In this document: positions 42,340 through 61,341 of the stretch, in pieces | Numbering within the stretch: the stretch's first letter is position 1 | How the letters are laid out: every line of letters starts with the position of its first letter | DNA from: a virus | Direction: 5' to 3' (one strand) | DNA: 61,656 nucleotides | Virus record (IMG/VR): IMGVR_UViG_3300028897_000348 | Location: 1-61,656 of that record | The notes under the pieces: model-generated | What the model saw: only the letters and a program-made list of their open reading frames with translations | What the model was told of the DNA's origin: nothing | Database searches by the model: none | Made by a program: the position numbers and the translations under genes

Positions 42340-43218
42340 CTAAATGTAGTAAGTATCGTCGAATCCCCCTTCAATTCCTTTCCAGTTTATTGCGATCGCC
42401 TCAGAAGTATGTATCGACTCTTCATGTATACATTTAATTATCCAATCAAAAAAGTCCTCTCGACCCTCAAGTGCTTTAGATATCTCTCGTATCGTATCTT
42501 CAACAAACATCGGGTTCTTAGCCGCGACCTTGGCTATTTCTTGTTCATCAACACGCTTTATTACAGGATATGGAAGAGTTTTTATAGCATCTTCTACTGT
42601 TTCAATAATATCTTCCAACCAAACATAATGTCTTTCTACTACTTGTACTAAAACATCAACAAAAGACCTTTGAGCATGTGGAAATCCCAAAATTTCTTTC
42701 TTCGATAAATCATTACAAAGCTCCGCTGAACATGGACAATATGAGGAATATTGTATTCTAACACCTTGAAAAAACTTAAAAGCATTAGCAGACCAACTTC
42801 CTTTACTTGATATTTCTGTAAGTTGTCCCTCAAATCTACATTTATAATAAATTGGAAATTCATTATCAGAAACTGGTGATCTCTTAATTATTGGTAATCT
42901 AAACTCAAATTTCATAAAACTGTTTGTAGAACCAATATTTATTTTTAGATCTTCTAATATTTCTCTTATTAAAATATGTTTCAATGGTTTTTCAAGATAT
43001 TCCTTTAAAGTAAGTATTAGTCTTGACATAGAAATACCTCTAACAGAAGGACCTAAACTAGTTCGCATCGAGACTCGAGCTACTAAGTCAGAAAATCCAC
43101 CGTACTTCAATTCCAGTTTAAACGGAACTTCTAAGTTCTCAATACCTACTTGTTGAATTGGAATCTCAATTTTAGGTCTTGTTTGTTGAATGTCTGATAA
43201 ATCATCTTTTTCCATCAT
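42340..43218 (-). CDS. folE2: GTP cyclohydrolase FolE2 (GCYH-IB)
   Basis: 292 residues. Diagnostic features: GISMSRLIL (about 61-69), YSSYCPCSAEL with the zinc/catalytic Cys (161), GFPHAQRSFVDV (179-190, His ligand), and LPYPVIKRVDEQ and NPMFVEDTIRE near the end. It converts GTP to dihydroneopterin triphosphate, the first step to folate or 7-deazaguanine. In phages FolE-type enzymes usually feed 7-deazaguanine DNA modification or hypermodified tRNA. QueC, QueD and QueE are not recognised in this window, so the downstream path is unknown. It starts 4 bases before the end of the RNA polymerase beta gene. Confidence 0.88.
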   Translation of the reverse strand: MMEKDDLSDIQQTRPKIEIPIQQVGIENLEVPFKLELKYGGFSDLVARVSMRTSLGPSVRGISMSRLILTLKEYLEKPLKHILIREILEDLKINIGSTNSFMKFEFRLPIIKRSPVSDNEFPIYYKCRFEGQLTEISSKGSWSANAFKFFQGVRIQYSSYCPCSAELCNDLSKKEILGFPHAQRSFVDVLVQVVERHYVWLEDIIETVEDAIKTLPYPVIKRVDEQEIAKVAAKNPMFVEDTIREISKALEGREDFFDWIIKCIHEESIHTSEAIAINWKGIEGGFDDTYYI

Positions 43219-46242: not shown

Positions 46243-46499
46243 CTTCTCTCCCCCCACTCCTGTTTTAAGTTTTCTGGAAGACCATGGTAAACCTCTTCAA
46301 GTAGTCTTAAAAGAGAATCATCAGAAAAGTCAGTTAAAAAGTTCAACCCCATCTTACGTTCTACTACATAATCTTTATGACTACTTCTTGAATAGTAAAA
46401 TCTTAAAGTTTTAAACAGTTTCCTTCTAATTCGTTTTCGAGATACAGAAGTTCTTTTTAATTCTTCCATTAATTCAGAAATATTTGCGTCAAGCATCAA
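46239..46499 (-). CDS. Small basic protein between the RNA polymerase genes, 86 aa
   Basis: A helical, Arg/Lys-rich N-terminal half (ELKRTSVSRKRIRRKLFKTLRFYYS) and a Gly/Leu-rich C-terminal half (DSLLRLLEEVYHGLPENLKQEWGE). It overlaps the beta' stop by 11 bases and the beta start by four, so it is translated together with both. It could be a polymerase-associated factor, such as an omega-like or assembly subunit. That is inference; there is no sequence match to omega. Confidence 0.55.
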   Translation of the reverse strand: MMLDANISELMEELKRTSVSRKRIRRKLFKTLRFYYSRSSHKDYVVERKMGLNFLTDFSDDSLLRLLEEVYHGLPENLKQEWGERS

Positions 46500-49200
46500 C
46501 CTTTTCTCCTTCTAAAATTTTGTCCATTATTCCTCGGTATGAGTCACTATTCAGAATTCCTAAAAGAATACTTCGTTTTGGATTTGAAAAAGCTAAACTA
46601 AGTAACCATGACTCGTAACTTGGAACTGTTTGTATACTGTGATATTCTGGAGATACCTTATCTCGATTATCTAAAAGTCTCCATTTTTTGGCACCTTTCC
46701 ACATTAGTTGTGAAACCACACATTCAAAATGTATATGATGTATATTTTGTCCACTACTGTTATATACTTCAAACAGTTCTGACACTATTTCTTTATAAGT
46801 TTTATCTTTAAACTGGTGTAGTAACTTTGAAATCGTAGACAAATCCGCAACGATGTCCATTTGTCTCATATTTATATTATCATCAACACCTTTTATAACA
46901 GCAGATCCAGAAGTATGAAAAGTTCTAAGAATTAATTGCGTTCCTCTTTCTCCTAAAGATTGAGCGGCAATTACTCCAATGAATCTACTATGAAGCGTTT
47001 TATAAAGATCACCATAACATTTATGACAAATCTTTGGACTCTCACAAAATATAGGACTTCTTAGTTGTATTATTCTATCGATAAAATTTCTATAGTTATC
47101 TGGAGTAATCTGTTTTAATTCCCCATCCTCTAAAAAATATCTCCAAACTAACATCTCAGCCTTCTTTGGAGTATCTACATGAACTTCTAAACAATCTCTA
47201 GTTCCACAATCATCTAGTTCAGGGTCAATCTGAAGGTTAACGCAAGTAAATATTAGTTTCCTAGAAAGATATCCAGATGTTCCAGTATTTAATGCAACAT
47301 CTAAAAGTCCTTTTCTACAACCATATGTAGAGTTGAAAAACTCCTCTTGATTTAATCCATCTAATAAACTACTTTTAATTGGCGTCGGCAAAATCTCGCC
47401 ATTAAAGTTAGACACAAAACCTCTAGATAAAATTATTTGTCGTACTTGATCCCAAGTTCCTCTCGCACCAGACTCCACTAAATAAGAATAGGTAAAATTT
47501 TCTTTAAGTAACTCTTCTGTTTCTTTCTTAGTAGTATTAGTAAGTTGAGATCTTATATCTTGAGGAGAGTACAACAATTCTTTTACTTTCTCAGAACCCT
47601 CAAAAAAGCAATCATCTAATGCCATTGTAACACCAAGTAAAGTCGAATATTTAAATCCAATTCTTTTAATATTATCTAACGTTTTTATAACAACAAGTTC
47701 ATCATATTTCGATTTGATATCATTCAATATTTTCATCAATGTTTTCTTATCGACAACTTCATTTACTAATGGATAATCTTCTGGTAGACTTTCATTAAAA
47801 ACTTTTATCCCTTGATAAACGTCTTCTCCTTTGTAATGAACTTTCTCTTGTAAATTAGAAAATCTATCTGATGTAAGACTAAAAACTCCTAGTATAATAT
47901 CCTGCCCAGGAATTGTAGTTAAATTTCCATCTGCAGGACTATTCAAATTTTTACCTACAAACAGTTTCTCTCTAACTTCTTGTTTACTTTCTTCTGATAT
48001 CGGAATGTAAACCGCCATTTGGTCTCCATCAAAATCTGCATTAAATGGAGTACAAATAAGGGGATGTATCTTAATAACTGAGTCTAAACTAATCTTAATA
48101 TTAAACCCTAACATTCCAAGTCGGTGAAGAGAAGGTTGTCTATTTAAAATACATACTTCATCTTTTGATATCTCTTCACAAACTTTGAAAAGAACTGGAG
48201 ACTTGAGTTTAATACAATTGTCCACAAAATCGATAGCTTTGTTTAATAATTTAAATCTCCTAACTTCAAGTAACTTTTTCGCTACAGGAATTTTAAACAT
48301 CTCCAAAAACATCAAATATGGAATAATGCACTCATCTAAATTTAAAGTTGGGTCTGGAACAATTACAGCTCTTCCAGAAAAGTCAATGCGCTTACCTAAG
48401 ATGTTTCCTCTAATAAGACCTTCTTTCTTAGAAAGTTTGTCAAGAATATGATGATATAACTCATTTACGTCTTTCTGTAGTTGCTTAAAATAAGTATAAA
48501 ATAGACTTTTATCACGTTGAATATCAAAGATCGTATCTTTCATTATCTCCTTTTTCGTAAGTATTTGAACATAGAATCTGTTAATCTTATCTACTACTTG
48601 GTCATTTTTACTTACACTTTTCGAAGCAGGTCTAAGATCTGGTGGAAGAACTATAACATGTTTAATAAAAAGTTTATCAATATTATCTCGAACTAACTTC
48701 CAATCTAATAAATCATCTGCAAGATTATTTGCGAGATCTAAAACTACTTTCTGGATTGCTTCCAATTTCTCCCACTTTTGAGCACCACTAGGGACTTGTT
48801 CTAGTTTAGTTGTAACTACATGCTCGTCACCATCCATATATAAAATACTTTTCTCACTTCTCAACAACTCATCAAGAACTGACTTTAGATCACTTCCACC
48901 TACATCAACTAGTAAATCATAAAATACAGGATTTACTACCGGAATAGGCAACGTTATCTTAGCAAATCTTTGACGTCGTTCATAACTATTTACAATGTCA
49001 ACTCCACATATTTTACAAGTCCCACCAGACTTAGAAACACCATAATACGTACCACATTGACAAGTATAGTTCCTCACAGGCCCAAAAATCTGTTCAGAAA
49101 ATAGACCTTCTGGATGAAACCTTCTTTTTAACATAACCTTGGTTGAAGTAACTTCTTTCAAGTTCTCACAGAATTTATTGTTGTCCAAGAGTTTTGGCAT
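46489..49200 (-). CDS. rpoC: RNA polymerase beta' subunit-like protein
   Basis: 903 residues. The first zinc site C47-x-C49-x12-C62-x2-C65 (CQCGTYYGVSKSGGTCKIC) matches bacterial beta'. GKRIDFSGRAVI (269-280) and LNRQPSLHR (352-360) come next, followed by the catalytic NADFDGD (387-393). The bridge helix/trigger region reads YGCRKGLLDVALNTGTSGYLSRKL, the second zinc site ICHKCYG, and AAQSLGERGTQLILRTFHTSG follows. The end resembles beta' 'FSNPKRSILLGILNSDSYRGIMDKIL'. It is shorter than bacterial beta' (about 1,400) because lineage inserts are missing, not because of truncation. AGGAGA precedes the ATG. Confidence 0.92.
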   Translation of the reverse strand: MPKLLDNNKFCENLKEVTSTKVMLKRRFHPEGLFSEQIFGPVRNYTCQCGTYYGVSKSGGTCKICGVDIVNSYERRQRFAKITLPIPVVNPVFYDLLVDVGGSDLKSVLDELLRSEKSILYMDGDEHVVTTKLEQVPSGAQKWEKLEAIQKVVLDLANNLADDLLDWKLVRDNIDKLFIKHVIVLPPDLRPASKSVSKNDQVVDKINRFYVQILTKKEIMKDTIFDIQRDKSLFYTYFKQLQKDVNELYHHILDKLSKKEGLIRGNILGKRIDFSGRAVIVPDPTLNLDECIIPYLMFLEMFKIPVAKKLLEVRRFKLLNKAIDFVDNCIKLKSPVLFKVCEEISKDEVCILNRQPSLHRLGMLGFNIKISLDSVIKIHPLICTPFNADFDGDQMAVYIPISEESKQEVREKLFVGKNLNSPADGNLTTIPGQDIILGVFSLTSDRFSNLQEKVHYKGEDVYQGIKVFNESLPEDYPLVNEVVDKKTLMKILNDIKSKYDELVVIKTLDNIKRIGFKYSTLLGVTMALDDCFFEGSEKVKELLYSPQDIRSQLTNTTKKETEELLKENFTYSYLVESGARGTWDQVRQIILSRGFVSNFNGEILPTPIKSSLLDGLNQEEFFNSTYGCRKGLLDVALNTGTSGYLSRKLIFTCVNLQIDPELDDCGTRDCLEVHVDTPKKAEMLVWRYFLEDGELKQITPDNYRNFIDRIIQLRSPIFCESPKICHKCYGDLYKTLHSRFIGVIAAQSLGERGTQLILRTFHTSGSAVIKGVDDNINMRQMDIVADLSTISKLLHQFKDKTYKEIVSELFEVYNSSGQNIHHIHFECVVSQLMWKGAKKWRLLDNRDKVSPEYHSIQTVPSYESWLLSLAFSNPKRSILLGILNSDSYRGIMDKILEGEKVDA

Positions 49201-49215
49201 GATTGTCTCCTTTTA

Positions 49216-49419
49216 TTAATCGAATTTTTCTTTGATAAATTCTGCTATTTCTACAAAATGTTGTTTTACTTTTTTAGAAATTAAACGGTCGAGATCTGAT
49301 TGAATTTCTTGTACAATTTTTGAGATCTCGGCTTTAGTGATTTCAGTTTGTGTTTCCTTCACTTTTTTCTCAACTAGTTCATTTACTTCTTTCTCGATTT
49401 GTTCACTTAAAATCGTCAT
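49216..49419 (-). CDS. Small coiled-coil protein, 67 aa
   Basis: I choose the ATG at 49419 (MTILSEQIEKEVNEL), which has AAGGAAAAG upstream, over the open frame starting at 49467. Almost the whole protein is charged helix with Glu/Lys heptads (EKEVNELVEKKVKETQTEITK and QSDLDRLISKKVKQHF). It overlaps the E2-like gene by 17 bases and ends 16 bases before beta'. It may be a polymerase- or Ubl-associated adaptor, which is speculation. Confidence 0.6.
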   Translation of the reverse strand: MTILSEQIEKEVNELVEKKVKETQTEITKAEISKIVQEIQSDLDRLISKKVKQHFVEIAEFIKEKFD

Positions 49420-49912
49420 CAACTTTTCCTTTCTTCCTTTGTTGAGGGAGTATTCTACCTTTATCAAAAATACTTTTGATTTTATCTTCTATAAATCTTG
49501 AAATTAAACCTAATTTAGGTGAGTTAGAAAAAACGTCTGTTTCTTTTCTTTCTTTTCCTATTTTTAACCACTTTTCAACTCCGATACTTTCATATTTAAT
49601 TTCTCCCCACGGAGTAAAGTAACAATTATCCAAGTTGAAAATATTGATCATATGTTCTATATACTCAATAGACTGTTCATTAAGAGGGAGATTTCTCAAC
49701 TCAAACGGTATACAAAATTCGTTTGTATCTGGGTCAGAATTTGGATGTATAGAATCTAAATAAACTGAGTCAATTTTTCCGTCAACTAATCTAACTGTAT
49801 ATTTCCTTATAACATATTTTGGGTCAATATCCGTAATTCTAAACAAACTATTTCTGTATATCATTTTCTTTGGAACTATAACTTTTTTTGTTTCTACCTC
49901 TTTTATACTCAT
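49403..49912 (-). CDS. Candidate E2-like ubiquitin-conjugating protein
   Basis: 169 residues. The region KYTVRLVDGKIDSVYLDSIHPNSDPDTNEFC (about 37-67) has the order of a UBC fold: strands, then HPN (56-58), then Cys67 eight residues later. A helix SIEYIEHMINIFNLDN follows, as in the helix after the active site of E2 enzymes, whose signature is HPN-x7-C. The N-terminus (25 residues) and the basic C-terminal tail (about 115-169) are extra. It is coupled to the ThiF-like gene by a one-base overlap (TAATG). E2 function is inferred from the motif and the context; a chance resemblance is possible. Confidence 0.5.
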   Translation of the reverse strand: MSIKEVETKKVIVPKKMIYRNSLFRITDIDPKYVIRKYTVRLVDGKIDSVYLDSIHPNSDPDTNEFCIPFELRNLPLNEQSIEYIEHMINIFNLDNCYFTPWGEIKYESIGVEKWLKIGKERKETDVFSNSPKLGLISRFIEDKIKSIFDKGRILPQQRKKGKVDDDFK

Positions 49913-50769
49913 TACGCTGCTCCAGTCTCTGGAATTAGTACTACGTAATTTTTATCTTTTTCTGTATAAGTAGATATAATAAAGTTATTAAATATAACTG
50001 GTAAGTTTAACATAGAAGTTAAATTAACAATAACATCTTCTCCAGATTTTAAAGAACCAGCTGGTATAGTTTTTACTGAAACATTTTTTTCACCAATACA
50101 CATACTTACATCTAAATCTGATTTTTTATTCATTTGAAGAATTGGAAGTAAATTTTCTTTTAAGTTTATTAGTTTCTCCTCTCCAACAGTAGCGTCATAA
50201 GCCACATCATCTGTACTTTGATTCATCTGTTTTAAATAATCTAAATCAAATTTACTTACATTATTATCTCGGATTAAAGAAGAAATAATATCGCTCTCGA
50301 TGAGCGTTGTTACCATATTAGCGGCGTTTCTCAAATCACCTTTAGTCAATCTACTTATGTATCTCCCTTCGAAATGTCTATCATACATTACATTCTTGCG
50401 ACAGTCTACTATTAAGTATCTCGACGATATATGCAACCTCGCATGGATTAAATCTTTCCTGTCATAAGTAAAATCTCTACAATCTAATATCAAATCGCAG
50501 TTTGGTAATTCTTCTTCTCCTTCAACAAATCTTGTATTTAATTTTACAACTTCTAAATCTTTATTCCTTGCCTGAATTATATCTGAGATCGCGTCAACTT
50601 TTAGTTTTCCAACATCGTTAGTTTTATATATAGCATTTCTCAAGTTCTTCTCATATACGACGTCATAGTCTACTAAGACTATCTTCTTTATCATATCAAG
50701 TTGTGAAATAACGTCGGCAACAAATCCACCGAGAGTTCCAAGTCCGATAACAGCAATATTAGAATACAT
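49912..50769 (-). CDS. ThiF/E1-like adenylyltransferase 2
   Basis: 285 residues. Rossmann start VIGLGTLGG (8-15), acidic strand VDYDVVYEKNLRN (33-45: the Asp34-x-Asp36 and the N42-L-R44 motif that binds ATP) and K55 after GK. These are the residues used by ThiF/MoeB/E1 enzymes to adenylate a ubiquitin-like C-terminus. A catalytic Cys is not obvious; Cys91, Cys97 and a later Cys (DCRKN) are candidates. The C-terminal third is beta-rich and unlike ThiF. It lies between a PC4-like gene and the E2-like gene. Confidence 0.75.
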   Translation of the reverse strand: MYSNIAVIGLGTLGGFVADVISQLDMIKKIVLVDYDVVYEKNLRNAIYKTNDVGKLKVDAISDIIQARNKDLEVVKLNTRFVEGEEELPNCDLILDCRDFTYDRKDLIHARLHISSRYLIVDCRKNVMYDRHFEGRYISRLTKGDLRNAANMVTTLIESDIISSLIRDNNVSKFDLDYLKQMNQSTDDVAYDATVGEEKLINLKENLLPILQMNKKSDLDVSMCIGEKNVSVKTIPAGSLKSGEDVIVNLTSMLNLPVIFNNFIISTYTEKDKNYVVLIPETGAA

Positions 50770-50805
50770 CTTATCCTTCCAAAATAAAGATTTTTACAAT
50801 CAAAA

Positions 50806-51069
50806 TCAAGAACTTTCTTTACTACTTTCAAAATTAACAATAAGTTCTAGTATTTCCGGGCCACGATCTAAAATAAATTTAACTTCTTCTTTATTAAGAC
50901 GTCCTATCTTAGAATAACCTATTGTACCATCTTGTTTCTTAAAAGACCTCACAAGTTGAAGTTTTGCTTCGCCTCCATCATAAGAAAATACTGATAGCTG
51001 TAAAGTCGACTTCTCCTGTTCAAATTCAAACAATTTTATCAAAATGTCTTTCTCTTGGTCATATCCCAT
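50806..51069 (-). CDS. PC4/YdbC-like single-stranded-DNA-binding coactivator
   Basis: 87 residues from the ATG at 51069 (GGAG six bases upstream; an in-frame ATG at 51081 lies before that site). The core LQLSVFSYDGGEAKLQLVRSFKKQDGTIGYSKIGRLNKEEVKFIL is a four-strand sheet followed by a helix, as in PC4/YdbC proteins: 'V..Y.G..K..VR......DG.....K.G..L..EE...I'. Such domains bind ssDNA and melted promoters as homodimers. It is the first gene after a hairpin and is upstream of ThiF-2, E2-like and RNA polymerase genes. Confidence 0.6.
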   Translation of the reverse strand: MGYDQEKDILIKLFEFEQEKSTLQLSVFSYDGGEAKLQLVRSFKKQDGTIGYSKIGRLNKEEVKFILDRGPEILELIVNFESSKESS

Positions 51070-51089
51070 ATTTTTCTCCATTTAAGTTA

Positions 51090-51115
51090 ACGGGACGAAC
51101 AAATATTCGTCCCGT
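51090..51115. terminator. Hairpin between the unknown protein and the PC4-like gene
   Basis: ACGGGACGAA (51090-51099) pairs perfectly with TTCGTCCCGT (51106-51115) around a six-base loop. A T-run follows on the plus strand and a weaker AACTTAAA on the minus strand. On the transcribed strand it may cause partial termination or protect the 3' end of the upstream message. Confidence 0.65.
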
Positions 51116-51127
51116 TTTCTAAAGGAA

Positions 51128-51718
51128 TTATAAGAGGAATAGTCTCTTCTCCGTATCGGTTGGATCAGGCATAAATTCAGATTTAAACTTAAAAACTTTG
51201 ACAGTTTCTTTTAATGGATAATCTCGTGGAATCTTATATAGAATCTTAACTTTCTTATTTCCCTTTGAATCTTCTTCTGTTAAAGTCTTAATCCAATTTT
51301 TATCGTCAGCTTTTAAACCAGAAAGAATAGGAAGAACTTCACCATTAAAAAAGTCAAGATCTTGATCATTTCTCATTCTCATAGATCTCCCAACAAACAA
51401 AGTCTTCCAACGATATGGCTGATTATTAATCGGTTCAGAACTCACTTTATACTCAGCAGCTTTTAGTGCTCTACTTAAAGCAATTCCTCTTCCAGTTGCT
51501 TTCGAAAATGAGTCTAGAACAGAACATATAGCAACTCCTCTAGCAATCATAGTCTTATCAATGTTAAAGAAAACACAAGCAGTAAAAATATTTTGAGTCA
51601 CTGGTGAAGTATGACGATAATATTTTACAGATACTTGTAAATCGTCTAATCTTTCCTCTACTGTTTTCCTTACTTTAACATTAACAACAGACCCTTCTAC
51701 ATTTGTTTTTGATTTCAT
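51128..51718 (-). CDS. Unknown protein of the Ubl cluster, 196 aa
   Basis: Two halves: a strand-rich N-terminal part (VNVKVRKTVEERLDDLQVSVKYYRH) and a segment IARGVAICSVLDSFSKATGRGIALSRALKAA (about 55-85), a 'RG.A.CS..D.F.K..GR.IA..RA' pattern I have seen in phage and plasmid hypothetical proteins. The end (VKVFKFKSEFMPDPTDTEKRLFLL) is a strand plus helix. It sits between hairpins and follows the Ubl gene by 67 bases. It may be the target, an adaptor or part of the Ubl pathway. I cannot assign a family. Confidence 0.6.
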   Translation of the reverse strand: MKSKTNVEGSVVNVKVRKTVEERLDDLQVSVKYYRHTSPVTQNIFTACVFFNIDKTMIARGVAICSVLDSFSKATGRGIALSRALKAAEYKVSSEPINNQPYRWKTLFVGRSMRMRNDQDLDFFNGEVLPILSGLKADDKNWIKTLTEEDSKGNKKVKILYKIPRDYPLKETVKVFKFKSEFMPDPTDTEKRLFLL

Positions 51719-51744
51719 TTCTCTAATTCCTTAGTTTTAATGAA

Positions 51745-51768
51745 GGGAACTAGATAATTCTAGCTCCC
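51745..51768. other. Hairpin between the Ubl gene and the 196-aa gene
   Basis: GGGAACTAGA (51745-51754) pairs with TCTAGCTCCC (51759-51768) with one mismatch. A weak A-T run follows on the minus strand. It may set unequal amounts of Ubl and the downstream genes. Confidence 0.5.
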
Positions 51769-51785
51769 CCCATATTCCCAGTTGT

Positions 51786-52253
51786 CTAACCTTTAGTTCC
51801 AGCTGTTTTTAAGAACTCAAGCGTGTCTCCCGGTTGAAGGATGTAACCATCGTTTACTGGATTTCCATTAACAATTCCTTGTGCTAGTCGGTCAACATTT
51901 AGAACTTCCTTCAAGAACTCAGCTACAGCACCTACAGTCTTATATGCTACATCAAAAGTTCCAGAAGCAGCGCCGCTTGAGACCCGAACAGTAGTAGTAG
52001 TCCTATCACCTTTCTGATTCTGAGGTTTCGTTAACCTACTTTCAAACGTACCTGCCATAGCAGTAACTCGCTGATCCACTTTTTTCGAAGGTGCTACAGA
52101 AGCTGTACCACCTTGCTTCTCAAGAATCGCACTTATGATCACATCTTTCCTTTTCTTAGTTAACCCAGGAATGTTAAGATCATAAACACACATTTGTCTT
52201 AATTCGACTACCGTTTTTTGTTCGAGTTGTTCTCTTGTATACGTAGTAGACAT
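51786..52253 (-). CDS. Ubiquitin-like protein with SAP/Rho-N-like domain and GTKG tail
   Basis: 155 residues. Residues 8-47 (LEQKTVVELRQ... GLTKKRKDVIISAILEKQ) match the SAP/HeH/Rho N-terminal helix-turn-helix that binds nucleic acids. After a linker, residues 84-150 have the strand-helix-strand order of the beta-grasp fold: TTTTVRVSSGAASGTFDVAYKTV, AEFLKEVLN, then DGYILQPGDTLEFLKTA. The protein ends in -GTKG, the tail I recall for PRTRC system protein C. The glycine tail is the reactive end in ubiquitin-like proteins. GGAGG precedes the ATG, and the E1 stop lies three bases before it. Confidence 0.7.
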   Translation of the reverse strand: MSTTYTREQLEQKTVVELRQMCVYDLNIPGLTKKRKDVIISAILEKQGGTASVAPSKKVDQRVTAMAGTFESRLTKPQNQKGDRTTTTVRVSSGAASGTFDVAYKTVGAVAEFLKEVLNVDRLAQGIVNGNPVNDGYILQPGDTLEFLKTAGTKG

Positions 52254-52255
52254 TA

Positions 52256-52948
52256 CTACCTCCTTTGTCTAATTGTTCTGACTTTGGCGTCAGATGTCAT
52301 TGTCAAAATATCAAAATAGACTTCAGAGAACTTGTAGTTCTCTTTTATAGCAACATTATAAAGTGCCCAGCACATGATTGTTGCTACTCCCATATTAGTA
52401 AAAAGTAACTGAGGTTCTGACTTAGATAACTCTTCACAAGATAGTTCATCAGGCGTTTTGTCAAGTGGATTTTGTATTTCTGGATGATAGGCGCATAAGT
52501 CCGGCGTTAAATCTTTACCCTCCTTTCTGACATAAATTTGCACGTTCCCATCTGTATATTCATTTCCGCCTGAAACTAGAGTTACATTCTGTAACTCCTT
52601 ACAATAATTTGATACCAGCATCCTCGTTTTATGATTATCTACACCTAGAAGAACTATATCATTCTCCTTTATTATACTTGGTATAATATTCTCGTCAACA
52701 AAACAAGGAACTGAGTTAATTGTTACATGTTCGAACTTAATACTAAGTTCTCTCTCCTTTACATCAGCCTTATTTCCCAACTGAGAAAATTCCTGTCTCT
52801 CAGTATTTTTCAATTCGTAACTATCTCCATCAACTAATGTTATTTCAGTCTGTATGTCTCTCAAATGGTCTACAAATCTACAAACTTTCTCCGATAAAAT
52901 AGAACCAATTCCACCTAAACCAATAATCCTTACCTTCATCTCCTTCAT
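52256..52948 (-). CDS. ThiF/E1-like adenylyltransferase 1 (PRTRC-type)
   Basis: 230 residues. RIIGLGGIGS (7-16) is the ATP glycine loop, followed by the acidic strand LVDGDSYELKNTERQEF (38-54) with the D-x-D and N-x-x-R-Q motifs of ThiF proteins, and Lys residues 60-64. Later, VNYTL-like strands with GNEYTDGNVQIYV and a cysteine-rich part (PDLCAYHPEI, DELSCEELSK) lie near the expected catalytic-Cys region. The total length suits the PRTRC ThiF family. It should adenylate the C-terminus of the Ubl three bases downstream. Confidence 0.85.
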   Translation of the reverse strand: MKEMKVRIIGLGGIGSILSEKVCRFVDHLRDIQTEITLVDGDSYELKNTERQEFSQLGNKADVKERELSIKFEHVTINSVPCFVDENIIPSIIKENDIVLLGVDNHKTRMLVSNYCKELQNVTLVSGGNEYTDGNVQIYVRKEGKDLTPDLCAYHPEIQNPLDKTPDELSCEELSKSEPQLLFTNMGVATIMCWALYNVAIKENYKFSEVYFDILTMTSDAKVRTIRQRR

Positions 52949-52994
52949 TTAAATCCTCCATTAAGAAATAATAAAATCTGATTCAAAGAATGTC

Positions 52995-53969
52995 TTATTC
53001 CAAATCTAAAATATCTTTTAATATTAGATCTACTTTAAAATTTCTAAACATACAATCCGTACATGGGTTATAAGACTCGTCTCGATCTTCGTCTTTCTTG
53101 ACGTCAACAATTGAGGTAACTCCAACTTGCTTAGTTGGACTTTGATATGATTGGAACAAATCTGCATAACCTGAATACAAACTAGTAAAATCTACATATT
53201 TACCACTATAAGCAGTATATGTTGTTTTTCTTGACTTAACAAACCCAATCCACCTTTTATCAAATTTCCTTTCTTCTCTACTAGCTAAAATTGTATAACC
53301 AAGTTTAGACTTTACATATTTTTTGTACTCTTTTTTTCCACCAACTACTGTAAAATTAGGCTTAAACATCGAAGGCCACCAAGGAGTATATTCAACTAAA
53401 TTTAAACCATCTATATACTCTGTAGGACTCACCATAAATCTATAACCATTTGCCATAACTGACGCAGAAATAGATATAAATTGATCATCTACGTCTCCAA
53501 TAGTAATATGAAGTCCGTCAAAGTGCGCCTCGTCCATATGATCAATAGTTGAGTGAAAAGCAGACATATTTCCATGACTATGAATTGAACCTATCAAATT
53601 ATAACCATCATATAAAACATTTTTTACATAACTAATTCCACCATATGAAACTTCTTGGGGTGGTACTTGTATTATATAACGTTTTTTCTTCTGATTATAA
53701 TGAAGAAGAACACAAGCTTCGCTCTTCTTTAGTTCATAAATTGTTTTAAAGAACTCAAAGACTTTTGCGAATCTTTCACTAGGAATCTTCTTGATATGTA
53801 GAGTTGCTTCTGGAGAAATATCTTCCAATATCGAAATTTTATCAACTGGCGCTAAACTCTCAAGAACACCCATTCTTTTCTTTAAATAAATTCCACCTTT
53901 TGCTATAACATAAAAGATATCATCATTTGGAAGTTCTGATTTTCCATCATGTATAACTACTTTAAACAT
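52995..53969 (-). CDS. JAMM/JAB (MPN) metallopeptidase, PRTRC-A-like
   Basis: 324 residues. GSIHSHGNMSAFHSTIDHMDE contains H130-x-H132-x7-S140-x2-D143, the zinc-binding signature of active JAMM isopeptidases, and Glu84 (KSEACVLL) is placed for the catalytic base. The surrounding strands (SYGGISYVKNVLYDGYNLIGS, DGLHITIGDV) and the phrase 'SISASVMANGYRFMV' fit PRTRC system protein A from memory. JAB enzymes release ubiquitin-like proteins or mature them. The C-terminal extension has CTDCMFRNF, a possible metal knuckle. It overlaps the 841-aa gene by 8 bases. Confidence 0.85.
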   Translation of the reverse strand: MFKVVIHDGKSELPNDDIFYVIAKGGIYLKKRMGVLESLAPVDKISILEDISPEATLHIKKIPSERFAKVFEFFKTIYELKKSEACVLLHYNQKKKRYIIQVPPQEVSYGGISYVKNVLYDGYNLIGSIHSHGNMSAFHSTIDHMDEAHFDGLHITIGDVDDQFISISASVMANGYRFMVSPTEYIDGLNLVEYTPWWPSMFKPNFTVVGGKKEYKKYVKSKLGYTILASREERKFDKRWIGFVKSRKTTYTAYSGKYVDFTSLYSGYADLFQSYQSPTKQVGVTSIVDVKKDEDRDESYNPCTDCMFRNFKVDLILKDILDLE

Positions 53970-56487
53970 TGTATATTAACCTCCTATCAACTCGAAAAAC
54001 CATAGGTGATCTTGGTTCTTCTGTATATAATCCATGAAAATTTGGAAATAAAGTTCTTCTGGAAAAACCTTGTTCTTTACTTTCAGAATATCTTGGCATC
54101 AGAAAACCATACCTAGTTTTTGATGTAACATAACCTGGACTTTCAAATCCCCAGAAAGCACCAACATTACTATAATTTTGAAGTGAAAAGTATACACTAT
54201 ATCCACCTCTGTCTTTTACAGACATATAATGATATAATTTTTTGGAATAAGTAGAAGTAACAAAAATATCACCTGGTTGATTTCTAATCCTATTTAACTT
54301 CAGTGGAACATGTTGTAAGTTATTCCATTCTTTAGAATCTGGAGGAATCAAATCAAAATTCTCTTCGAGGTCAAAAATCCACAATGTACAACAATTAGAA
54401 CATAGTACAAGAGATGGTCCACCAGTATCAATTATAAAAGCTACAATCATATTTATATCTTTCTTTGGAAAGCATGAAATCCCTGTAGTTTTTGCTCTGA
54501 TTTTTGTACCAACCTTAATTCCATTAAGTTCGTTAACAACTTTACGAACTAATCCTACTTCTACATCTCCAGTTAAAATGTTAACATATGTTACTTCTTT
54601 TTTTTCCATCTTATGTTCCAAACAAAGTTTTATATCAACCGAATCCGTTTTAAAACCAGTAACTGTCCAAACTTTTAACATCTGCATTGGATCAACCCAA
54701 TCTGCAACTACTACTTTGTCATTAACACTAAAACTGATATCTAAGTCAAAACTCCTAATTTCGAGTTTATTATCTTTAATAATCTCTTGTCCAGCAACTT
54801 CTGAACTATAATTCTTCTCAAGTTCAAGTCGACCATTAAGTAGTACTTTATTACCTCTCGAATAAACAGTTTTTCCAGAATCTATAAGAAGTTTTCTTCC
54901 AACTCGAAAAAGTTTACCTACATGTTGAAACTTCTGTTTAGGTTCAATATTCCAGTTATCATCACCAACACTTATATTGTACTTCTTGCCTGTCATGAGA
55001 CTAAATTCCATAACTAATTTTCCGTCTTTAGAATTATTTAACTGATTAAACTTAACTTCAAAACAAGAAGAAATTGGAAGACTATTCGTTTTAACTTCTG
55101 TTAAAAAGTATTTTTTCCCCGATTGTAATCTCACTGACTTATAAGAAAAGTCCTTGAAATCAATTAGTTCTGCTTCTAGATTTTTTGCAATATAATAATC
55201 ATTTAGTAACTTAACTTCTACTAATCCATCTCTAGCAATTCGAATCTTCTCTACCGTTCTATATGACTTCACTGGAAAATCAACACATAATATATCACCT
55301 ACTTTAATCACTTTCTTATCACTAAGTTTTACTGAATCTAAAAACTTAGTTTTGTCAAGTTGTTCACTAAAAGTATCTAACACATTCTTTGTTAACTCAA
55401 CTGTTTCTATATTTCCATCTTCACTTTCAATATTAACATGAGTAGGTTCTAATGAATCTTTCGGACCAAGGAATGAGTAAATATAATAATTCTTCCCTTG
55501 AAATATAACTGCCTCACCAATAGAAAGTTCTTTATTTGACAGAAATATTGAGTCACAAACATTATCTAACTCTGGACCATCTTCAGTAGGAATTTCTACT
55601 TGGGGTTTAACAAAAACTGCTCTTACATTATTATAAGTTAAATGACCCCCTTCTTCACTTCTACCAGAAGCGTCAACTATCATAGATTTAAGCAAAGAAC
55701 CTACAGTATGTGTATATTTAATCCACGGAATGTTAAAAACAAACAACGGATCTCGATTTGTATTATATGACCAAGTCAAGAAACTACATATTTCTGGAAC
55801 ATCATCGTACTTCCTGTAATTTTCTGTATAGTCACCATTAAACGAGTTAACCCACCATTTTTCTAGAGCTTCATAGAATGACTCAGCTAGTGGTAGATAT
55901 TTTGACGAAGGGTCTCCAAGACAAGCCGAAGAAGAAGAATCTAAATTCGGAAGATTACAAACAAGAAGATAATCTGAAAAAGAACTAATAGGACTTAATC
56001 GATAAAATACTTTAAATCTATCATACACAAATTTGTTTCTTTCACTATAGAAGGAAACAAAGTAAACTATATATGGAAATGATAAAGTAAATCTGAACGG
56101 AGAATTATTCTTTTCAAGGAAATTTTTAAATCCATACTCAACTAGTTTACCTGTTTTTTTAAGACGTTCAATATCACGTTCCATACTCAGTTTAACTAAA
56201 ATTGTTCTAATCTTTGGTGAGTCTTCAACTACAAGAATTACATAAGATCCAAATCTTCTAACAAATCTACAGTTTTGAGGAAGTACATCTAATACTTGAC
56301 TACCACTTAACTTACTAAGTTTATATAAAAAATCTCTAGTCAACAAAGTCTTATTTCTTATTCTTGGTTCTGTATCTCCAACTTGTTGGTCATGAACTTT
56401 AGACACTAAACAACTAGAGTACCTTGAATCAATTCGTATCTCATGTATTGCCTCACTAGTATCAGGAAACATATCATACCTTCTCAT
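53962..56487 (-). CDS. Large protein of the Ubl cluster, possibly PRTRC-B/E2-like at its N-terminus
   Basis: 841 residues. Residues 80-260 contain features that recall PRTRC system protein B (Prok-E2 family D): strand-rich PFRFTLSFPYIVYFVSFYS, then ACLGDPSSKYLPLAESFYEALEKWWVNSFNGDYTENYR, where a C-L-G motif is followed by 'W...S.FNGDYTENY'. The likeness is weak. The rest (about 300-841) is a string of beta-rich domains with repeated 'VGDILCVDF', 'VNDKVVVADW', 'IKVGTKIRAKT' units that look like SH3/KOW-like small barrels. The stop overlaps the JAB start. It could be a scaffold for conjugation. Confidence 0.5.
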   Translation of the reverse strand: MRRYDMFPDTSEAIHEIRIDSRYSSCLVSKVHDQQVGDTEPRIRNKTLLTRDFLYKLSKLSGSQVLDVLPQNCRFVRRFGSYVILVVEDSPKIRTILVKLSMERDIERLKKTGKLVEYGFKNFLEKNNSPFRFTLSFPYIVYFVSFYSERNKFVYDRFKVFYRLSPISSFSDYLLVCNLPNLDSSSSACLGDPSSKYLPLAESFYEALEKWWVNSFNGDYTENYRKYDDVPEICSFLTWSYNTNRDPLFVFNIPWIKYTHTVGSLLKSMIVDASGRSEEGGHLTYNNVRAVFVKPQVEIPTEDGPELDNVCDSIFLSNKELSIGEAVIFQGKNYYIYSFLGPKDSLEPTHVNIESEDGNIETVELTKNVLDTFSEQLDKTKFLDSVKLSDKKVIKVGDILCVDFPVKSYRTVEKIRIARDGLVEVKLLNDYYIAKNLEAELIDFKDFSYKSVRLQSGKKYFLTEVKTNSLPISSCFEVKFNQLNNSKDGKLVMEFSLMTGKKYNISVGDDNWNIEPKQKFQHVGKLFRVGRKLLIDSGKTVYSRGNKVLLNGRLELEKNYSSEVAGQEIIKDNKLEIRSFDLDISFSVNDKVVVADWVDPMQMLKVWTVTGFKTDSVDIKLCLEHKMEKKEVTYVNILTGDVEVGLVRKVVNELNGIKVGTKIRAKTTGISCFPKKDINMIVAFIIDTGGPSLVLCSNCCTLWIFDLEENFDLIPPDSKEWNNLQHVPLKLNRIRNQPGDIFVTSTYSKKLYHYMSVKDRGGYSVYFSLQNYSNVGAFWGFESPGYVTSKTRYGFLMPRYSESKEQGFSRRTLFPNFHGLYTEEPRSPMVFRVDRRLIYNV

Positions 56488-57729: not shown

Positions 57730-58764
57730 TCATATTTTCCTCCTATCTAAATGTACTAAATCACCTAAACTTTCTTTATCATCAACTAATTCTGCCATCA
57801 TAGTACAAGTCCAGTTACATTTTTTACAGTAGAACCTTTTATCTCTAAACAAATATACTTTCAAAAACGGATTAAGTTCATTATCATTTGTAAAAAGATT
57901 AGAAAGACTCATATATTTTGGAGAGTCAACCCCTCTAACTCGTAGACAAAGTCTTATAGATGAGTCTGCGTCAACAGTTATAACTTGGACATCATGATAG
58001 TTACTACATTCCATATCAGAAGGGAGTGAGTCCCATATCTTAGCCACTAAATCCTTACCCATATGAACATTTAATTTATCATTAAAAATCTTTTTAAACT
58101 CTTCCGCCAGTTGCGCTGATGGATATACTAAAGTACTCTCGTCTCTGATATTAGAGAAATCATAATATGGAGTTTTTGCTATATCAACAAATGTTATAGA
58201 ACTACTTATATCACGACTATCTAAATCTTTTACAAGACGATGTAAATATTGTACAGTATTCTTATCAACAGTTATCTCAGCAACTAAATCTTTTACAAAC
58301 TTCTCAAATCTAGTTAACTTCTTAATTCCAGAAATACTTTTCAAAACAATATCACCGCTAGCATTTTTATCGAAAATAATAGGATCTACTGAAGATGTAA
58401 GACCACCAACAAACTCTACTTTAGAAAATAGGTTCTCCAACATTGGTTGAACTTGATCTGAATTATTTGTAATAATTGTATAGAAAATATCTTCTTTGTT
58501 ACAATAGTTAATAATCTCAGGGAGATCTTTTCTTAACAGAGGTTCGCCACCATACAATATATGGAAACAATCTGGATTATGAAGTTTGAATCTCCTAAGA
58601 CCTTCAATAACTGTATCAGTCGACATTTCGTTTTCTAGATAATACTTCATATCCGGATATTCAGTAGGTTTCCCATCATAGTCTCGAACTATAGAACAAT
58701 ATTCACACCTTAAATTACATCGTCTTGTTAATAACCAGTTAACAATTTTTACTTTATCCATCAT
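57730..58764 (-). CDS. Radical SAM/SPASM-like protein 2
   Basis: 344 residues. The cluster motif is C-x3-C-x2-C in RRCNLRCEYCSIVRDYDGK (about 15-33). GGEPLLRKDLPEI follows, as in SPASM-type enzymes ('GGEP'). The C-terminal part has Cys in METMECSNYHDVQ, LCLRVRGVD and YCKKCNWTC, a probable auxiliary-cluster region. The closest known functional types are peptide-modifying (anSME/PqqE-like), so it may modify a protein. No small precursor peptide gene is seen next to it. The stop overlaps neither neighbour. Confidence 0.8.
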   Translation of the reverse strand: MMDKVKIVNWLLTRRCNLRCEYCSIVRDYDGKPTEYPDMKYYLENEMSTDTVIEGLRRFKLHNPDCFHILYGGEPLLRKDLPEIINYCNKEDIFYTIITNNSDQVQPMLENLFSKVEFVGGLTSSVDPIIFDKNASGDIVLKSISGIKKLTRFEKFVKDLVAEITVDKNTVQYLHRLVKDLDSRDISSSITFVDIAKTPYYDFSNIRDESTLVYPSAQLAEEFKKIFNDKLNVHMGKDLVAKIWDSLPSDMECSNYHDVQVITVDADSSIRLCLRVRGVDSPKYMSLSNLFTNDNELNPFLKVYLFRDKRFYCKKCNWTCTMMAELVDDKESLGDLVHLDRRKI

Positions 58765-59145: not shown

Positions 59146-61341
59146 TTAAAAGAAACTTAAAACCTCATCAGCATCGATCTGGTCTATATGTCGATGACTA
59201 ATGATATTTATCGACTTATCTACTACTAATGTACGAAGTAGATTTGAAACGTATGTAATATTTTCATCATCTAAACTATCAAAAATTTCATCAAATAAAA
59301 CAATATTAAACTTGATATCTTGAATATCATTTTGTAAATCACATAAAGTCAAAATTGTGGCAATGTCAACAAGTCTTGTTTGTCCGCCAGATAACTTAAC
59401 TCTAGAATTTGCTTTAGTAAGATTGTCAAGAACGTTTACTGAAATTTTGTCTCTAAATTCACCCTCTTTTGTTGCTTTTAGAGTATCAAAAGAAACAATG
59501 TATCTTCCATTCGATATCTTATCTAAATAATACGAAACTTTCATATTCATAAATGGAATTGACTCATCGATTAATAAACTAGGAATTCCAACAGACGAAA
59601 AACCAACCTTCCAGAATTCCAAAACTACTATGTCGTCCTCTAAACTACTCTTCTGAGTTTCTAGTCCCCTAATTTCTTCTTCTATAGATTCAACTTTCTC
59701 TGTATAGAAGTTTAGCTGAGACTCATCAAATTTCTCTTCTTGTTTACGAGCAAGAAATCCTTCTACAGTCTTAATTCCAGATTCAATATCAGAGATTTGT
59801 TTTTCTAATTTATTGATCATTCCGATCTTACTTTTAATATTACCAATTTCAGTTTCTAAATCTTGTTTCTTTAATTTCAAAAGTTCCATCTCATTAGAAG
59901 ACTTTTTAGTTTCTTCTTCAAGTTTCTTACTACTTAATTGTTCTACTTGCTCTACTAACTTATCATATTGCTCTTGAACTTTCTGAATTTCCGAACTCTC
60001 GTTAATGTCTATAACATTAAGTTCGTTTTCTTTCTTTTGATTGTTCTCTGAAACTTTAATAACTAAATCATCATGTTTTCTAATTATTGTCCTTATATAA
60101 AACTCAATTTCCTCCTTTTTCCCTCCAAGATTGAGAATTTCATTTTTGATCTGTTCTCGTTTCTCCTCCAAATTACGTATAGTGCTTGGACCAATCTTCT
60201 GTTCACAAGTGGGACAAGTAGCAATTTCTTTATCTATCACACTTTCTTTAATTTCAACACTTCGTTCATCCAACGAAGTTATTTTAGTTTCAATACTCGC
60301 AACTTTATTCTCTAGTTTGTTTCTTTCCTCGCTTAAAGAAAGTAGTTCAGAATTAATTTCATCTTTTTCAGACCCTAAAGTGCTTCTTAACTCATCTCTC
60401 AACTCATCATATTTGGTTTTTATTTCATCAGAACGTTTCAACATTTTATTCTGAAGTTCAGAAATCTTTAATCGTTTCTTGTTACCTAAGTCTTGATAGA
60501 AAGAAACTAAACCTGAATCGATTATCGAAATTTCTTTCTCAACCAAAACTACTTCCTCAGAAAGTTTCTCAAGGTTAGAAGTTTGTTCTCGAACTTCTTC
60601 AACCTCTTCAAAGAGACTATCGATTTCTGACTTCCGTCTTACTATCGTGTTCTGATACTCTTCTATGTCTTTAGCTTTATTTATCTCAAAATCAGATTTT
60701 ACTTTATTAAGGGTTACAATTTGAAACTTAGCATCAGAAAGTAACTGTTGGTCTACTGACAACTTATTCTTAATTTCGTCCAAGCTTTCTGATATTTGTT
60801 TTATTCTTTTTACAGTTTCATTATAATATAAAACATAATCGTCTAACTGCAAAATCTTTCTGAAGATCTCTTTCTTATCAGTATCAGTAAGATCAGTAAA
60901 GAAGTTTTTAACTTTCTGTCCAAACAACAACGTATTCATAAACAATTTCTGTGGAATAAGTATTCGTTCAAGCTCAGGTAGAACTTCTCGTTGACCCTTT
61001 TTTATAGGGTTCTTCATATCATGTCTATATAGAAGTACTGTATTCCCATTCTGACGATGCTTATGAAATCTATCAACTCGATATGGAACACCATCTACTT
61101 CAAATGTTAACCAAGTGTGACAGTCTCTCATTATCACATCATTTACTACATCATCTCCATGTCTACCTGTACTAGTTACTCCATATAATGTATAAGGTAA
61201 ACAATCAAATATCGAAGATTTCCCAACTCCATTTGGTCCAGTAAAAAGAACCATTTTATTGTCTCTAAAATCATGAACCATCTCATTAATATAACAACAA
61301 TAGTTCTTCATTCCAACTTGGAGAAATTTTACATCTTTCAT
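59146..61341 (-). CDS. SbcC/Rad50-like recombination ATPase (T4 gp46-like)
   Basis: 731 residues. Walker A is GPNGVGKSSIFDCLPYTLYG (about 36-55). Two long coiled-coil arms flank a zinc hook, ATCPTCEQKIG (about 374-384), where dimers join. The C-terminal signature LSGGQTRLVDIATILTL (about 653-669) and Walker B IVLFDEIFDSLDDENI (about 688-703) are complete. These proteins work with an Mre11-like nuclease to process DNA ends in recombination-dependent replication. A classic Mre11/gp47 gene is not adjacent; the HTH-metallophosphoesterase at 3461 is the only candidate in the window. Confidence 0.88.
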   Translation of the reverse strand: MKDVKFLQVGMKNYCCYINEMVHDFRDNKMVLFTGPNGVGKSSIFDCLPYTLYGVTSTGRHGDDVVNDVIMRDCHTWLTFEVDGVPYRVDRFHKHRQNGNTVLLYRHDMKNPIKKGQREVLPELERILIPQKLFMNTLLFGQKVKNFFTDLTDTDKKEIFRKILQLDDYVLYYNETVKRIKQISESLDEIKNKLSVDQQLLSDAKFQIVTLNKVKSDFEINKAKDIEEYQNTIVRRKSEIDSLFEEVEEVREQTSNLEKLSEEVVLVEKEISIIDSGLVSFYQDLGNKKRLKISELQNKMLKRSDEIKTKYDELRDELRSTLGSEKDEINSELLSLSEERNKLENKVASIETKITSLDERSVEIKESVIDKEIATCPTCEQKIGPSTIRNLEEKREQIKNEILNLGGKKEEIEFYIRTIIRKHDDLVIKVSENNQKKENELNVIDINESSEIQKVQEQYDKLVEQVEQLSSKKLEEETKKSSNEMELLKLKKQDLETEIGNIKSKIGMINKLEKQISDIESGIKTVEGFLARKQEEKFDESQLNFYTEKVESIEEEIRGLETQKSSLEDDIVVLEFWKVGFSSVGIPSLLIDESIPFMNMKVSYYLDKISNGRYIVSFDTLKATKEGEFRDKISVNVLDNLTKANSRVKLSGGQTRLVDIATILTLCDLQNDIQDIKFNIVLFDEIFDSLDDENITYVSNLLRTLVVDKSINIISHRHIDQIDADEVLSFF

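Follow-up and report, generated by a model that had tools for sequence, protein, structure and literature searches.

The 61,656-base virus record IMGVR_UViG_3300028897_000348, analysed here over its whole length and called the window, carries on its minus strand, upstream of the RNA polymerase gene rpoC, a compact gene run that quite probably encodes a system for conjugating and deconjugating a ubiquitin-like protein (Ubl). As read from the sequences, this phage-encoded system would consist of a PRTRC-type (ParB-related, ThiF-related cassette) core, i.e. a B-type E2 domain, a JAMM (JAB) protease, a first E1-like protein (ThiF1) and the Ubl, to which is added a second arm made of another E1-like protein (ThiF2) and an E2-like protein with an HPN-x8-C motif (E2b). 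An earlier note, made from the letters of the window alone, had proposed that the virus carries a PRTRC-related cluster for Ubl conjugation, and the analysis supports it, since the B, A and ThiF proteins are PRTRC-related, the Ubl is ThiS-like and a second E1/E2-like pair is present; the open reading frames (ORFs) it listed were all recovered where it had placed them, on the minus strand. Regarding gene content, the support comes from the PRTRC_A, PRTRC_ThiF, Prok-E2_D, ThiS and ThiF profiles. In order, the genes of the run encode proteins of 841, 324, 230, 155, 196, 91, 285, 169 and 83 amino acids (aa), with an overlap of 8 bases between the genes for the 841- and 324-aa proteins and of 1 base between those for the 285- and 169-aa proteins (Table 1).

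Conservation of the gene order in jumbo phages

A search with a ThiF1 profile returned 48 loci from viruses and 12 from genome assemblies, which, once collapsed at 90% ThiF1 identity, gave 34 lineages with an adjoining rpoC, the window and one contig of a metagenome-assembled genome (MAG) being counted among them. The order JAB-ThiF1-Ubl-ThiF2-E2b-rpoC is strictly kept on one strand in 32 of these 34 lineages, where a gene of the 841-aa type nearly always precedes JAB; in the two exceptions, E2b is replaced by a protein with, as judged by eye, a longer HxN-to-C insert. Because this order recurs in so many distinct lineages, the clustering is not due to chance. Throughout these loci, the active-site residues are invariant while the remaining sequence diverges to 20-40% identity.

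Syntenic contigs reach 224, 244 and 277 kb, and the rpoC-linked loci are therefore assigned to jumbo phages; together with the tail sheath, baseplate wedge and TerL genes of the window, which also encodes a tape-measure protein and is probably a fragment of a virus genome, these sizes support the jumbo-type phage put forward beforehand. The six-gene form was found in no isolate of the phage collection. One locus with the full phage gene order, rpoC included, lies in a MAG titled Thermoplasmatales archaeon (L058); the contig is probably that of a virus, placed in the archaeal bin, and the system would not be archaeal.

The PRTRC-related core

Over its first 267 aa, the 841-aa protein aligns with four PRTRC-B proteins, taken from phages and from a gut element (hhalign E=3e-7). 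In addition, PF14460 (Prok-E2_D) is matched by 4/7 of its relatives, with a best value of 4.5e-7, bearing in mind that the match of the reference B proteins themselves to PF14460 is strong in one and weak in the others. Within this domain, which has the features of PRTRC protein B (Prok-E2_D), N181 and C189 are invariant, C189 being found in 35/35 relatives. The whole ORF was rejected as a PRTRC-B protein, the B-type part being restricted to the N-terminal ~267 aa, so that the possible PRTRC-B-like protein of the earlier note is retained for this part and dropped for the rest of the chain.

The 324-aa protein carries the complete JAMM motif H-x-H-x7-S-x2-D that had been read from its sequence (IHSHGNMSAFHSTID) and, besides, the upstream catalytic Glu (E84); E84, H130, H132, S140 and D143 are conserved in 46/46 sequences. 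It matches PRTRC_A (TIGR03735) at E=1e-11 and Prok-JAB at E=2e-4 and, with 44.7 bits vs. a curated PRTRC_A cut-off of 101.8, is homologous to the curated family but stands outside it. The same holds for ThiF1 (PF00899 at E=2.8e-20, PRTRC_ThiF, i.e. TIGR03736, at E=2e-10), which scores 40.3 bits vs. a curated cut-off of 144.75 while being nested among the PRTRC ThiF proteins in the tree. As anticipated for the first ThiF/E1, with its D-x-D and N-x-x-R-Q signatures, ThiF1 carries DGD and N-x-E-R-Q motifs; D40, R51, Q52, K60 and D104 are found in 54/54 sequences and C171 in 52/54, which amounts to the ATP-binding D/N/R/Q/K residues of an E1 accompanied by a Cys. C171, in the motif 'SCEEL', is the candidate thioester Cys.

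The likeness to the PRTRC cassette lies in the adjacent B-type E2 (Prok-E2_D), A-type JAMM and PRTRC-type ThiF as well as in a Ubl with a G-x-K-G end. However, the phage proteins score under the curated cut-offs, the phage Ubl is ThiS-like with a Rho_N domain instead of Prok_Ub and its gene comes after that of ThiF, and the phage set adds ThiF2 and the HPN-C E2 and sits beside RNA polymerase. An NCBIfam scan of neighbouring proteins, in a window that is itself a fragment, found neither ParB nor PRTRC D, E or F. Because the curated cut-offs are missed and C, ParB, D, E and F are missing, the cluster is, as judged from its sequences, related to PRTRC without being a PRTRC cassette, namely a PRTRC-like build with additions. 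PRTRC presumably corresponds to the bacterial operon type 6d. This operon type was described as a set of Ub-like, JAB, E1 and E2 proteins in a study that also reported lambda-type tail Ubl/JAB pairs (Iyer, Burroughs and Aravind, 2006; PMC1779556).

The predicted ubiquitin-like modifier

The 155-aa protein, whose gene lies between the two E1 genes, combines an N-terminal Rho_N domain (E=3e-6; found in 7/8 relatives) with a ThiS-like C-terminal half, which reaches E=0.12 alone and 3e-4 in its best relative. Among the 8 relatives, ThiS is matched by 4 (best 3e-4) and TGS by 4 (best 0.003). The protein ends in GTKG, and G-x-KG occurs in nearly all relatives, with or without a short tail, which in some of them is C, R, YK, LL or IDVGL. 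On its ThiS/TGS profiles, the 155-aa protein is a predicted beta-grasp modifier with an exposed Gly end. The earlier note had recognised a Ubl by its GTKG end, which the ThiS-like half upholds; the refinement is that it is of a ThiS/MoaD-like type fused to Rho_N and not PRTRC-C, a candidate rejected since ThiS is matched instead of Prok_Ub and hhalign gave a probability of 7%. An apparent Ubl-ThiF2 fusion (L049) possibly results from a frameshift and was left unused.

These ThiS profiles bring in the main rival explanation, a sulfur-carrier pathway, where ThiF1 would adenylate a ThiS/MoaD-like protein to yield a thiocarboxylate for RNA, DNA or cofactor thiolation, the JAMM protein merely trimming the carrier. 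ThiS is indeed the best Pfam match of the Ubl (3e-4), and sets of JAB, ThiF and ThiS are known from sulfur pathways (PMC1779556), but two E2-like proteins with an invariant Cys would then be roleless. Moreover, ThiS/MoaD sulfur transfer goes with a GG carrier end and a sulfur donor, whereas the Ubl ends in K-G, not G-G, and neither a rhodanese nor a cysteine desulfurase was found among the tested neighbours. A sulfur-carrier role is accordingly held to be improbable, and Ubl conjugation is preferred.

The second arm: ThiF2 and E2b

The second ThiF noticed beforehand was confirmed by PF00899 (E=5.5e-16). D34, K57 and C97 are invariant in ThiF2, and the R-Q of active E1s is missing. Its model displays the E1 Rossmann fold, with UBA5, Cap2 and MccB matched at E ~1e-8 and a further resemblance to PaaA. 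Towards the C-terminus (about residues 219-280), a strand-strand-helix-strand-strand unit was observed, which is possibly a ubiquitin-fold domain, and ETGAA, or a close variant, closes the chain in nearly all of the 36 relatives. In the tree, ThiF2 forms a separate clade (support 100/100), by which a recent duplication of ThiF1 was rejected, long branches limiting what this tree can tell about the origin of ThiF2. The doubled E1 of the earlier note thus holds in the sense of two E1-like proteins, ThiF2 being no recent duplicate and lacking R-Q.

Resemblance to MccB and PaaA could also suggest the maturation of a ribosomally synthesized and post-translationally modified peptide, in which the ThiF proteins and a nearby radical S-adenosylmethionine (SAM) enzyme, encoded upstream in most relatives, would modify a small peptide. 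Yet a conserved gene for a precursor peptide was not seen, and the JAMM and E2-like proteins would be left unexplained, so that such a maturation pathway appears extremely unlikely compared with Ubl conjugation.

The strongest evidence on E2b, which is considered E2-like with a putative fold, is its conservation: H56, N58 and C67 are the sole fully invariant residues in 34 relatives, with identity down to about 20%. The HPN-x8-C motif announced for this protein is present and specific to it, as the pattern occurs in 37 of the 1,520 non-overlapping ORFs of all loci and all 37 are E2b or its counterpart; shuffling the E2b sequence yields it in 0.012% of cases. When a profile of seven E2b sequences was compared with the PDB, the best match was a ubiquitin-conjugating enzyme (1yrv, E=0.08) with HPN...C in register, this small profile also matching, away from the motif, a plant resistance protein. 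With 27 sequences, the matches among natural proteins were three E2 chains (E 0.11-1.2), above which one designed repeat protein ranks. The AlphaFold2 model is confident over about the first 100 residues (core predicted local distance difference test, pLDDT, about 90) and presents, in order, a beta-meander, the HPN..C loop and a helix; Foldseek against viral models gave nothing convincing. A derivation of E2b as a copy of the B-type E2 was rejected in the absence of a profile match, one comparison only reaching E=0.03. While the earlier note was right about the HPN-x8-C protein, it counted one E2-like protein where there are two, the B-type domain being the other.

Proposed pathway

In the preferred reading, the JAMM protein would trim off the tail of those Ubls that extend past G-x-K-G. 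From its invariant E1 residues, ThiF1 may then adenylate the Ubl C-terminus and take the Ubl on its conserved Cys, before handing it to an E2 Cys, which could be C189 of the 841-aa protein and/or C67 of E2b. The Ubl would next be joined to amino groups of targets, from which the JAMM protein could take it off again and so recycle it. ThiF2 is most likely a partner E1 subunit recruiting E2b by its C-terminal domain. Eukaryotic heterodimeric E1s, such as NAE1-UBA3 and SAE1-UBA2, associate one active and one degenerate adenylation subunit. By analogy, the phage pair may likewise bring together an active and a degenerate subunit, with a terminal domain possibly recruiting the E2. Regarding the targets, the weakest step, a place in phage transcription or on nucleic acid is suggested tentatively, because of the Rho_N domain and of the constant proximity of the RNA polymerase genes. 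A more ambitious and rather unlikely version would be a lineage-wide jumbo-phage pathway tied to the RNA polymerase of the phage itself, where a eukaryote-like two-subunit E1 (active ThiF1 and pseudo-E1 ThiF2 with an E2-recruiting ubiquitin-fold-like domain), two E2s and the Rho_N modifier would mark transcription complexes or DNA/RNA-bound proteins.

Several observations weigh against a conjugation system. E2b matched no Pfam family, E2 included, and its Foldseek search was weak, with UbcH7 as best match (E=0.47) and further E2s next. None of the 8 Ubl relatives matched Prok_Ub (PRTRC-C), and hhalign of the Ubl against PRTRC-C-like Ubls gave only E=0.005 at the low probability cited above. 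The ThiF2 C-terminal domain was also tried as a second Ubl of the same family, which its order of strands and helix would fit, but comparison with the Ubl profile gave no match. Besides, a ThiF with a ThiS-like protein is also compatible with sulfur transfer, neither a substrate nor an E3 was seen for the cassette, and the conjugation chemistry is a prediction from sequence.

So far, Ubl conjugation in phage-bacterium conflict is known on the host side, in Bil and type II cyclic oligonucleotide-based antiphage signaling systems (CBASS). The logic of Bil/Bub and type II CBASS, i.e. E1, E2, JAB and a Ubl or Ubl-like target, is shared by the phage set, and the ThiF2 fold resembles Cap2; these are, however, host defence operons with a fused E2-E1 in Cap2 and BubCD, and against their profiles the phage cassette matches in the E1 domain only. 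Since host Ubl systems acting on phages are known (PMC10097602) and the phage set holds a full JAMM protease, it might serve in counter-defence, attacking Bil or type II CBASS Ubl defences, mainly by deconjugation, or decoying them. This is quite improbable, as a decoy or a protease would have no need of two E1-like and two E2-like proteins whose catalytic residues are invariant, and the set is kept in all rpoC-linked relatives, which looks core and not patchy. If conjugation is right, viruses of bacteria would use ubiquitin-like signalling for their own ends: a conserved, apparently complete phage-side set with a fixed RNA polymerase neighbour in more than 30 lineages suggests that these viruses tag proteins in a ubiquitin-like manner. 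A published description of this set was not found in a search of mainly open-access literature, with subscription papers and preprints mostly outside it, and, with the terms used, no mention of a phage ThiF or Ubl system was found in a large jumbo-phage survey (PMC7824862) and a 2026 review (PMC13282480).

Simpler forms and isolated relatives

Sets restricted to the B-like protein, JAB, ThiF1 and a Ubl of 90-115 aa are found in viruses, on two large contigs of which one measures 340 kb, as well as in genome assemblies, namely on a contig from a Neisseriaceae MAG and on several from NC10. No Rho_N was seen in the Ubls of these sets, and no rpoC, ThiF2 or E2b near them; because the simpler forms lack all four, the Rho_N fusion, ThiF2, E2b and the RNA polymerase linkage are taken as one derived form. 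The series from B-A-ThiF-Ubl to the set augmented with Rho_N, ThiF2 and the HPN-C E2 bears on the assembly of multi-enzyme ubiquitin cascades. One locus (L011) has the Rho_N-Ubl with ThiF2 absent within its fragment. The NC10 (Methylomirabilota) loci (L059-L067) have chromosomal-looking neighbours and hold a B-like protein, JAMM, a ThiF1-like protein and a short ThiS-like Ubl in the phage order, and are apparently an undescribed cellular relative of the phage cassette.

Among isolated phages, Vibrio phage D69, Salmonella phage Arash and Bacillus phage KLEB27-3 share a B-type E2 and an A-type JAMM, preceded by a Ubl gene; ThiF is present in Arash and KLEB27-3, whereas D69 has a short related ORF only. 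Their Ubls, tandem in D69 and KLEB27-3, differ in being PRTRC-C-like and without Rho_N, and ThiF2, the HPN-C E2 and an RNA polymerase gene are absent from the stretches examined. Together with the simpler phage/NC10 forms, the isolates Arash and KLEB27-3 make the system directly testable.

Arash also bears on a role in virion assembly or processing, in which JAMM and Ubl would help the tail or capsid to mature, in the way put forward for lambda TAPK/TAPI, with conjugation being incidental. The PRTRC-like set of Arash lies near a PAAR spike gene, the annotation gives its ThiF and E2-type proteins as structural, and the Arash proteome table has Gp246-249 and Gp251 (PMC10585845), although the numbering of this table is not safely matched to GenBank. 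Given that the cassette is linked with RNA polymerase instead of tail genes, and that the lambda case involves no E1 or E2 enzymes, a virion role is given little credence next to Ubl conjugation.

In Arash, an unannotated ORF of 66 aa ending in RRTGTKG (L004:107-307, plus strand), where GenBank has another frame (gp251c, 72 aa), looks like the Ubl of the PRTRC-like set. KLEB27-3 encodes four tandem Prok_Ub repeats, each ending in AGVKG (L005:2718-3425, plus strand), which make a natural poly-Ubl; the B, JAMM and ThiF genes lie a few genes downstream. In D69, a single ORF upstream of B and JAMM holds three Ubl-like repeats ending in TGTKG (L003:5304-6095, plus strand), and the ORF in the ThiF position, of 251 aa, looks truncated. 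MoeB matches in 'Acinetobacter phage MD-2021a' were discarded, since the genes around them are bacterial metabolic ones and the stretch resembles host chromosome.

Gene neighbourhood

Table 1. Genes of the cassette and of the adjoining RNA polymerase in the window
Feature	Position	Strand	Basis or remark
841-aa protein	53962..56487	-	N-terminal ~267 aa (55687-56487): PRTRC-B / Prok-E2_D type E2 domain; remaining ~570 aa unassigned
JAMM (JAB) isopeptidase, PRTRC-A type, 324 aa	52995..53969	-	TIGR03735 1e-11; active-site residues 46/46
ThiF1, PRTRC-ThiF-type E1-like activating enzyme, 230 aa	52256..52948	-	Profiles, tree, conserved residues
Rho_N + ThiS/MoaD-like Ubl, 155 aa, G-T-K-G end	51786..52253	-	Profiles of relatives
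Accessory 196-aa protein	51128..51718	-	Found in a minority of relatives
Accessory 91-aa protein	50806..51081	-	Found in a minority of relatives
ThiF2, second divergent E1-like protein, 285 aa	49912..50769	-	PF00899 5.5e-16; model; tree
E2b, HPN-x8-C E2-like protein, 169 aa	49403..49912	-	H56, N58, C67 invariant 34/34
83-aa gene, E2b-rpoC interval	49216..49467	-	Present in several relatives
Phage RNA polymerase beta' (rpoC)	46489..49200	-	Constant downstream neighbour of the cassette
Putative phage RNA polymerase beta, 1,011 aa	43222..46257	-	Identity by sequence and position; adjoins rpoC in relatives too

An Rfam scan of the window gave no match. Three further minus-strand genes surround the cassette and the polymerase genes. 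A radical-SAM protein with viperin/PapB/MoaA-like scores (57730-58764) is a steady upstream neighbour in most relatives, and a Rad50/SbcC-like ATPase (59146-61341), also on the upstream side of the cassette, is kept in relatives. So is the GTP cyclohydrolase FolE2 (42340-43218; PF02649 1e-61), which adjoins the putative rpoB.

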